This document shows, one piece after another, positions 46,286 to 62,187 of a DNA stretch of 64,000 bases. Origin of the DNA: Thiogranum longum (GTDB taxonomy: Bacteria; Pseudomonadota; Gammaproteobacteria; DSM-19610); NCBI RefSeq assembly GCF_004339085.1, contig NZ_SMFX01000001.1, positions 2,708,573 to 2,772,572 of the forward strand, written 5' to 3'. Both the position numbers and the translations under genes were made by a program. Within the stretch, counting starts at the first letter, position 1. The number at the start of each line of letters is the position of its first letter. The notes under the pieces were generated by a model. It saw nothing but the letters and a program-made list of their open reading frames with translations, was not told the origin of the DNA and ran no database searches.

Positions 46286-47404
46286 TCAGCGTCGCTTGCG
46301 AACAGCTTTCTTCTTTGCTGCAGTTTTCTTCTTTGCTGTGGCTTTCTTCTTTACCGCCGTTTTCTTTTTTGCCACAGCTTTCTTTTTTACTGCTGTTTTT
46401 TTCTTGCTGACCAGCTTCTTCGTGACAGTCTTCTTGCTGGCAACTGCTTTCTTCTTCGCTGTGGCTTTCTTTTTTGCAGGCACCTTTCTGGCGACAGCCT
46501 TTTTATTGCCGACCTTCTTTTTCACTAGCGCTTTTTTTGCCACGGCTTTCTTTTTTACCGCTGTTTTTTTCTTGCTCGCCGTCTTCTTCGCAACAGCTTT
46601 CTTGCTGGCGACCGGCTTCTTCTCAGGCGGGGCCTTCTTTGCCCGTGCCTTGCCCTCTTCAAGCACCGGTGCAGCATCACCCTCACGCTGTTCCAGCAGC
46701 TTGCGCGCCACAGCACGACGTATGGCTGCGGAACGGTCACGGCTTGGAAATGTCTTCCTCGCCTCCTCCGCAACTTTCAGCACCGCCTGAAATACATCAT
46801 CCGGCTCACCTGTCCCCTGCACCTGCCGCAGAATTTCCTGTTCACGGTAATACTCCACCACCGGCAGGGTCTGCAGCTCATAGATTCTCAGGCGATTGCC
46901 AATGGTTTCTTCATTGTCATCCGAACGGCGTCGCAAACGGCCGCCGCATTCGTCGCAACGGCCATCCATTTTCGGCGGAGCATAGAAAATGTTGTAACTG
47001 GCGCCGCAGGACACACAGGTACGTCGCCCGAACAGGCGCTGCATGATGGTATCGACATCGACATCGATCAGCAGTGCCAGGTCAATGGGCTGGCTCAGCT
47101 GCCCAAGCAACTCATCCAGCTGCTCGGCCTGCGCCAGATTTCGCGGAAAACCATCCAGAATGAAGCCCTTGCGGGCATCGCTGCGGGAAAGTCGCTCGCG
47201 AATGACGCCCAGCACGATTTCGTCGGAAACCAGCTGACCGGCGTCCATTACGACTTTCGCCGCCTTGCCAAGCGGCGTTCCGGCCGCCACGGCCTCCCTC
47301 AGAAGGTCGCCGGTAGAGATTTCCGGAATCTTGTAATGCTTTGCCAATCGATGTCCCTGCGTGCCCTTTCCGCACCCGGGCGCTCCCAATAGCACAATCC
47401 TCAT
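46286..47404 (-). CDS. adk: Adenylate kinase with a long histone H1-like Lys/Ala-rich C-terminal tail
   Basis: 372 residues, against about 215 for normal adenylate kinase. Residues 1-215 are a complete enzyme: P-loop GAPGCGKGTQG, ISTGDLLREAV, LDGFPRNLAQAEQLD, a zinc LID with Cys130, Cys133, Cys150, Cys153, and ETIGNRLRIYELQTLPVVEYY. It interconverts ATP+AMP and 2 ADP. Residues 216-250 form a helical linker (SAAIRRAVARKLLEQRE). From 251 on the sequence is KKxVAKK-type repeats: 52 Lys in the last 122 residues. Such tails resemble AlgP-like or histone-H1-like proteins and could bind DNA, RNA or polyphosphate. No stop or frameshift separates the two parts. A GAGG site precedes the ATG. Confidence 0.93.
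   Translation of the reverse strand: MRIVLLGAPGCGKGTQGHRLAKHYKIPEISTGDLLREAVAAGTPLGKAAKVVMDAGQLVSDEIVLGVIRERLSRSDARKGFILDGFPRNLAQAEQLDELLGQLSQPIDLALLIDVDVDTIMQRLFGRRTCVSCGASYNIFYAPPKMDGRCDECGGRLRRRSDDNEETIGNRLRIYELQTLPVVEYYREQEILRQVQGTGEPDDVFQAVLKVAEEARKTFPSRDRSAAIRRAVARKLLEQREGDAAPVLEEGKARAKKAPPEKKPVASKKAVAKKTASKKKTAVKKKAVAKKALVKKKVGNKKAVARKVPAKKKATAKKKAVASKKTVTKKLVSKKKTAVKKKAVAKKKTAVKKKATAKKKTAAKKKAVRKRR
46290..46650. repeat. Internal low-complexity repeats encoding the adk tail
   Basis: Degenerate tandem units built on alternating CTTTCTTCTTT and GCTGTTTTTTTC-type tracts on the plus strand, encoding KKK-[TA]-[AV] blocks on the minus strand. The region is prone to length change by slippage or recombination, so tail length may differ between strains. 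It also risks assembly error. Confidence 0.8.
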
Positions 47405-51294: not shown

Positions 51295-51309
51295 TTTTAA
51301 CGGGTGTGA

Positions 51310-51343
51310 CGCCCCCGGCTCTTCCAGGGCCGGGGGCGTTTTT
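51310..51343 (+). terminator. Intrinsic terminator after hppA
   Basis: A 10-bp stem CGCCCCCGGC / GCCGGGGGCG with a 9-base loop and five T, 15 bases after the hppA stop. Confidence 0.92.
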
Positions 51344-51362
51344 GTTTCTGGTGGTTTTTATC

Positions 51363-51560
51363 GTCAGTGAGGCGGCCAAGAAGGTTCAGGCTGCGATTTG
51401 CCCGCTGCGCGGGTTCCCTGCGCTTCTCGACATTTTGCGCGCTCGCTAAACTCGCGGTACGCGCTGTGCGCGAACCGCTCAGACAACGCTCGCTTGATCG
51501 CAAAACGTCTGCGATGCTCGGCTGCATCGATGCCTGAACCTTCTTGGCCGCCTCGCTGAC
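51363..51560 (-). repeat. Structured element copy A: conserved core closed by a 29-bp terminal inverted repeat
   Basis: Ends 51363-51391 and 51532-51560 are reverse complements (29 bases, one position a G-T wobble). The enclosed 140-base core, read on the minus strand, matches the core of copy B at 51762-51964 in three blocks: TGCAGCCGAGCATCGCAG, the hairpin region GCGGTTCGCGCAC...GCGCGTACCGC (51454-51478), and CAGGGAACC...AGCGGGCAAA. The terminal stem is unrelated to that of copy B. No protein gene is supported, because a one-base length difference between copies breaks the shared frame. Confidence 0.9.
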
Positions 51561-51638
51561 TGGATCTGTGCGAATTTCACGCTCACCGAATAGCAAAAGC
51601 CTGTACCGAACTTGAAGAGCATTTGATTAATTCATATA

Positions 51639-51708
51639 CCGTCATTCTGGCGTATGCCAGAATCCATTGGTTTCAATGAGATGGATACCGGCATTCGCCG
51701 GAATGACG
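51639..51708. repeat. R2 repeat, two-hairpin element
   Basis: Two palindromes in inverted order: CATTCTGGCGTATGCCAGAATCC, then GGATACCGGCATTCGCCGGAATGACG. Together they give the outer inverted repeat GTCATTC/GAATGAC. Same layout as the element at 59976. It lies between the two structured elements A and B in the hppA-ppa gap. Confidence 0.85.
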
Positions 51709-51761
51709 TAGGTAGCTATCAACAGCATGTGCCGGCCACACGGAATCTGCCACACACTGAC

Positions 51762-51964
51762 TGGTTCGGGGCGGCGGGGGTGTACCCGGTGAGTCGGTGC
51801 AGCCGAGCATCGCAGCGAAACGCGGAAGAAGAGAGCCCTGTTTGAGCGGTTCGCGCACGGCGCGTACCGCGAGTTTGGGCAAACGCCGCGTTTTGCGAGA
51901 AGCACAGGGAACCTGCGTAGCGGGCAAACCGTCGAAACGGGTACACCCCCGCCGCCCCGAACCA
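51762..51964 (+). repeat. Structured element copy B: same core, different 27-bp perfect terminal inverted repeat
   Basis: Ends 51762-51788 and 51938-51964 are exact reverse complements over 27 bases, G-rich on one side. They share no sequence with the terminal repeats of copy A. The core (about 51795-51930) carries the same three conserved blocks as copy A in the opposite chromosomal orientation, including the internal hairpin 51846-51870 (5 bp, T-T mismatch, 5 bp, 3-base loop). The element ends 85 bases before ppa. Confidence 0.9.
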
Positions 51965-60084: not shown

Positions 60085-62100
<2,016 letters not shown>

Positions 62101-62187
62101 CGCGAACAAAGTAGCTAAAGGGTGGAAGTATTGCAAGCGCACCCTCACGCCAGTACCCTTTGTGCGCCGACGGAGGAAATAACCCTG

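Follow-up and report, generated by a model that had tools for sequence, protein, structure and literature searches.

The window, by which we mean the whole 64,000-nucleotide stretch of Thiogranum longum DNA analysed here, carries two inverted copies of a structured element between a membrane pyrophosphatase gene (hppA) and an inorganic pyrophosphatase gene (ppa), both named by reading their translations. The membrane pyrophosphatase gene has its own terminator (51309-51345) ahead of the pair, and the inorganic pyrophosphatase gene has its own promoter region. Copy A lies on the minus strand (51363-51560) and copy B on the plus strand (51762-51964), exactly where an earlier note on this DNA had placed them. 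Their heads are separated by a spacer (51561-51761), inside which an inverted CGTC-type REP dimer, CGTCATTCTGGCG ... CGCCGGAATGACG, occupies about 51640-51708. CGTC REP families have been described (PMC3733652). Head-to-head units in Stenotrophomonas often have a GTAG-type (SMAG-like) REP at the equivalent place in the spacer. Elsewhere in the window are an adenylate kinase-like ORF of 372 aa with a long Lys/Ala-rich, histone-H1-like C-terminal tail (46286-47404) and, on the minus strand, a TPP riboswitch (62008-62105, Rfam RF00059, 72.4 bits).

Copies A (subtype I) and B (subtype II) were delimited from stem to stem by reading the sequence, by inverted-block comparison and by folding. They share three inverted blocks of 48 nt (90% identity), 36 nt (89%) and 22 nt (95%), which bears out the shared core described earlier. 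The closing stem P1 of copy A forms 28 of 29 Watson-Crick pairs between its 5' arm (51532-51560, minus; sense GTCAGCGAGGCGGCCAAGAAGGTTCAGGC) and its 3' arm (51363-51391, minus). Within it, all on the minus strand, lie a 5' box TGCAGCCGAGCATCGCAG (51509-51526), the two arms of helix P2, GACGTTTTGCG (51499-51509) and CGCAAAATGTC (51429-51439), placed by alignment and pair counts, a 3' box CGAGAAGCGCAGGGAACC (51412-51429) placed by alignment, and the hairpin P4, CCCGC-GCA-GCGGG, with a C-GNA-G triloop (51401-51413), recognised from the sequence and a loop survey. The two boxes are joined by the pairs CC/GG, GC/GC and TC/GA, which are separated by conserved non-canonical positions.

Copy B has the same layout on the plus strand. 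The arms of its P1 (51762-51788 and 51938-51964) match in 27 of 27 pairs, and its 5' box at 51798-51815 has the same letters, TGCAGCCGAGCATCGCAG, as that of copy A. By the same alignments and pair counts, its P2 arms are GCGAAACGCGG (51815-51825) and CCGCGTTTTGC (51886-51896) and its 3' box is CGAGAAGCACAGGGAACC (51896-51913). P4 of copy B (51912-51924), CCTGC-GTA-GCGGG, has a C-GTA-G triloop and one T·G stem pair; the internal 5+5 bp hairpin reported earlier is present in both copies. The closing stems had been called perfect, which is true of copy B, whereas in copy A the sixth pair from the outside is a C·A mismatch on the sense strand (T·G on the plus strand). As DNA folds, the sense strands are far more stable than expected, with z = -8.1 (A) and -8.6 (B), and none of 200 shuffles was equally stable.

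The two copies belong to a larger family whose members are about 140-200 nt long and carry the boxes GAGCATCGCAG and CGAGAAGCGCAGGG. In the 2.9-Mb host genome, a single contig, 13 copies were counted, a number also returned by the covariance model. At least two of these (L007 and L013) are incomplete, and most have a long closing stem of their own. Other genomes of the window's genus have 0 to 9 copies each by blastn, which makes the host the richest in the genus. The covariance model (R1), built from 54 diverse copies, finds from at least 2 up to at least 30 copies in each of 16 individually searched genomes, and strict filters leave 12 positive genomes among 299 sampled Pseudomonadota. At least 120 stretches of a genome collection match the conserved-box pattern. 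Among the matches listed are many Xanthomonadaceae (Stenotrophomonas, Luteimonas, Pseudoxanthomonas, Xanthomonas), as well as Silvimonas, Methylophaga, an Ectothiorhodospiraceae MAG, Halorhodospira, Nevskia and two MAGs named Desulfobacteraceae and Olavius Delta 4 endosymbiont. Low-complexity repeats of the GCTTTGGC/GCCAAAGC type flank element heads in Xanthomonadaceae (L060 and L063, Luteimonas and relatives).

No Rfam 15 model matches the family at gathering score, and matches below that threshold, seen with permissive settings, are at chance level. Plasmid, phage and E. coli collections gave no match in sensitive blastn with single-member queries, a search that could miss divergent relatives, nor did viral contigs contain the exact box pattern. 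The family was not recovered in literature searches, whether for its box sequences or for its described features, although most subscription journals lay outside their scope and an earlier description is possible. The remark that no named family fits thus agrees with the databases and papers searched. A protein-coding reading, already doubted in the earlier note, is ruled out, as the boxes covary as base pairs and the core lengths vary out of frame. We conclude firmly that the family is real and strongly structured, and that it is absent from the databases and papers covered by our searches.

The conserved boxes pair with each other, a feature of the RNAalifold consensus of 54 diverse sequences that is not visible from copies A and B alone. 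The whole structure forms a three-way junction composed of the closing stem P1, a long arm (boxes, P2, P3 and an apical hairpin) and the side hairpin P4; outside the window's genus, the P1/P4 junction was judged by eye on several sequences, with no scored alignment. Over the 27 core pairs in the 54 sequences, 84.4% of cells are paired compared with 63.1% after shuffling, and 330 cells are changed on both sides compared with 115.6±9.0 in shuffles, which leave kinship among the sequences in place, and 77-134 when the partner is slid. Most positions of P2 use five or six of the standard pair types, and box columns 18/145 are T/A in 165, C/G in 49, G/C in 7 and other combinations in 5 of 226 distinct cores. 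P3 is poorly aligned, with 54% of its cells paired. In two loci (L242 and L233) the folded arm is missing, deleted between short direct repeats located at its base, as would be expected of an arm that makes a hairpin in replicating DNA.

The closing stems covary in the same manner. For 26 genus copies in register, 90.6% of stem cells are paired compared with 53.7% after shuffling, and 283 cells are changed on both arms compared with 84.7±7.2 in shuffles that likewise retain kinship (maximum among 500, 104). The evidence for covariation across the core and closing stems is overwhelming, and the earlier statement that pairing is kept while sequence changes is borne out. That note had also proposed a covariance-model search for many copies with compensatory stem changes; such copies exist, 13 in the host and more elsewhere.

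The stems of A and B were further described as unrelated, and they indeed cannot be aligned, but across the 26 genus copies nearest-neighbour stem identity is graded, from 27/30 to 16/30. The non-resemblance of A and B is therefore the far end of a gradual series. At the argG site, the stems of orthologous copies in two genomes (G007 and G016) show three positions at which both arms have changed and two at which a single arm has. Together, the compensated changes and the graded identity indicate that stems evolve in place, with no need for new termini. The alternative raised in the earlier note, in which a mobile element picks up different terminal inverted repeats each time it moves, would account for the unalignable stems of A and B and for the two or more outer-repeat types seen among Stenotrophomonas units. 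It is contradicted for the window's genus by these stepwise compensated substitutions, and recent duplicates at different sites (L003 and L004) keep identical stems, so that we regard it as barely credible.

Mismatches in the helices are strongly asymmetric. On the box-bearing strand, G·T exceeds A·C by 25:4 in the closing stems and by 71:10 and 25:1 in distinct P2 arms of the two box types; a non-redundant alignment gives 30:13 (sign test p = 0.014). This excess identifies the box-bearing strand as the one that folds. Strand-symmetric causes, such as cruciform DNA or correction of one arm by the other, fail to predict it. The latter process, in which template switching copies one arm of an imperfect inverted repeat onto the other with no selection, would explain why nearly all stems are close to perfect and why the long outer repeats of Stenotrophomonas agree inside each unit but not from one unit to the next. 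A recombinant Stenotrophomonas copy (L234, about 1060-1152), whose P2 arms derive from different subtypes and are non-complementary, as if template-switched at the apex, also resembles switching between partners. Such correction predicts neither the sense-strand G·T excess nor covariation in short paired boxes that retain non-canonical positions, and we consider it an improbable source of the pattern as a whole. In one unit (L122), the outer inverted repeat is 119 bp long, almost free of mismatches, and includes a stretch found on both sides of the unit, which suggests copying between the two ends.

Whether the folding strand acts as RNA or as DNA bears on the main rival explanation, a family of structured non-coding RNAs in which a sense-strand transcript folds and serves a cellular or selfish role, with dispersal secondary. 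Covariation is expected of such a family, the conserved internal loops, which have G·A-type positions, look like RNA motifs, and the excess of G·T over A·C on the box strand, present in both partners whichever way they are inserted, suits the G·U tolerance of RNA equally well. The loops point the other way. Among 238 distinct apical and P4 hairpins, the C-GNA-G triloop occurs 110 times, GNRA once and UNCG never. Typical structured RNAs contrast with this near absence of GNRA and UNCG loops. GNA loops closed by G-C pairs form extraordinarily stable DNA minihairpins (PMC4686876). Loop composition thus favours single-stranded DNA over RNA with moderate strength, and nothing separates the two decisively. 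The RNA reading also has to contend with the lack of an Rfam 15 match, the absence of any obvious promoter by eye at element heads and the variation of insertion sites between relatives. We judge it rather unlikely.

The family is often arranged in inverted pairs of unlike members. The distinct inverted pairs number 75 (38 joined head-to-head, 37 tail-to-tail), a tally uncorrected for shared ancestry and inflated by orthologous loci from Stenotrophomonas and Luteimonas. In 72 of them the two partners have dissimilar P2 arms, whereas random pairs of pooled elements have similar arms in 16% (head-to-head) and 37% (tail-to-tail) of cases. With the same caveat of shared ancestry, 55 pairs combine a T:A partner with a C:G partner in their boxes, and none combines C:G with C:G. 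The window pair, of subtypes I and II, fits this rule. We infer that unlike partners are needed so that each member folds on itself. About half of the sampled loci have a single copy only, and one locus (L097) has an alternating +,-,+ run. Stenotrophomonas units possess an additional outer inverted repeat, whose arms agree with each other inside a unit; comparison of units shows at least two types.

Insertion sites vary between relatives. In eight relatives, nine loci could be read across the hppA-ppa region, and all nine lack the element there, with a recognisable ppa promoter region; a tenth ppa locus (L192) is cut by a contig end and was left out. At the argG site, six genomes have one copy or two and eight have none, and one Stenotrophomonas site is likewise occupied in certain genomes and vacant in the rest. 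Neither the L003/L004 duplicates nor the empty sites define an exact boundary or a target-site duplication.

These empty sites also bear on the idea that the elements are bidirectional terminators or protectors of mRNA 3' ends that are incidentally repeated. Consistent with such a role, they are intergenic, and a crude tally based on ORFs places 25 single copies between convergent genes but just 6 between divergent ones. However, a normal terminator (51309-51345) already precedes the A/B pair, a terminator has no need of conserved boxes, two subtypes or a three-way junction, and relatives do without the element at the same gene ends. This role is very improbable as the explanation of the family.

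No recurrent gene was found beside the elements besides syntenic orthologues. A Y1 transposase (PF01797), present in 12 of 17 genomes of the genus, has no match in the host genome and was for this reason rejected as the mobiliser. In one locus (L180, 2691-4103), a 470-aa ORF with coiled-coil-like N-terminal repeats (AEGDIATAQSDISAAESRI) occupies a 2-kb spacer between inverted subtype II copies, and a 1.2-kb spacer (L183) has transposase-like ORFs. Judging by their translations, neither looks like a gene of the element itself.

We propose, at about even odds, that the family is a non-autonomous, REPIN/BIME-like mobile repeat that acts as a folded single strand, with A and B being two members of one inserted unit. 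The sense strand of each member would fold into the three-way junction of P1, the long arm and P4 with its C-GNA-G loop. This folded strand, most likely DNA exposed in replication or transposition, could be recognised by a putative trans-acting enzyme that reads shape, boxes and junction and not the letters of the stem. Stems whose letters go unread could drift freely while both sides change together. Inversion and unlike subtypes may ensure that each member folds on itself and not with its neighbour, and that a long perfect palindrome is avoided. Compared with the earlier interpretation, which is partly supported as a whole, this account is narrower: the box strand folds, the fold is a three-way junction, the inverted pairs join unlike subtypes, and the loops favour single-stranded DNA.

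Several observations weigh against this mobile-repeat proposal, and the mechanism of single-stranded DNA mobilised in trans is itself about an even bet. The host has no Y1 transposase although it is the richest genome of the genus, no neighbouring gene recurs, and no target-site duplication can be defined. Because head-to-head and tail-to-tail pairs both occur and about half of the sampled loci are single, the unit that moves may not be a pair in every case. One member is always the complement on either strand, so that of the two members in a single-stranded intermediate, just one would fold correctly. The GNA loops suggest DNA without proving it, G·U tolerance fits RNA too, and the shuffle controls retain kinship among sequences. 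More tentatively still, the family is possibly a new class of selfish chromosomal element in Gammaproteobacteria and two deltaproteobacterial MAGs. Its replicating unit would be an inverted pair of three-way-junction folds that differ from each other; these would be recognised in single-stranded DNA by their shape, whatever the letters of the stems, and mobilised by an enzyme that is not known to move repeats.

Rfam 15 thus lacks a strongly covarying repeat that occurs in many lineages of Gammaproteobacteria, among them well-sequenced Stenotrophomonas and Xanthomonas relatives. The repeat offers a natural experiment in how a fold is kept under sequence drift and why inverted neighbours differ. 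If it acts on single-stranded DNA, it would extend the recognition of folded strands, as in REP, IS200/IS605 and attC, to a structure of much greater size, and would suggest that a new mobilising enzyme exists.

Among known systems, MITEs are likewise short and non-coding, with terminal inverted repeats and a presence that varies between relatives. Unlike theirs, the terminal repeats of this family differ between copies and match no recognised transposase ends, and no transposase recurs beside the copies. Integron attC sites function as folded single strands whose stem sequence is variable, a property the family appears to share, but the ends of A and B, read directly, have no RYYYAAC/GTTRRRY core sites. 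Structured RNAs in Rfam resemble it in their strong covariation with conserved non-canonical positions, yet none of the Rfam 15 models recognises it at gathering score.

The closest likeness is to REP, BIME and REPIN sequences, which are also intergenic, dispersed and non-coding, form head-to-head and tail-to-tail inverted pairs, heterodimers included, undergo compensatory stem changes and have a fold that is read on one strand only. REPINs are inverted doublets with compensatory stem changes (PMC3116915), and TnpA-REP acts on single-stranded REP and not on its complement (PMC8266576). The family shares the inverted doublet in its 75 distinct pairs, with about half of the sampled loci single. 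A REP is defined as a 20-40 nt palindrome tagged GTAG or CGTC (PMC3733652, PMC8266576), whereas members of this family are about five times longer (about 140-200 nt), have no GTAG or CGTC tag that we could see, and so fall outside the definition. They also differ in having two long paired boxes and a three-way junction, in numbering tens of copies and not hundreds, and, in contrast to REPs with their RAYT (TnpA-REP), in the absence of a cognate Y1 transposase from the host genome. On the features tested, the family is neither a MITE, an attC site nor an Rfam family; by analogy, it appears to behave like a much larger counterpart of REP/BIME elements, without being one of them by definition.
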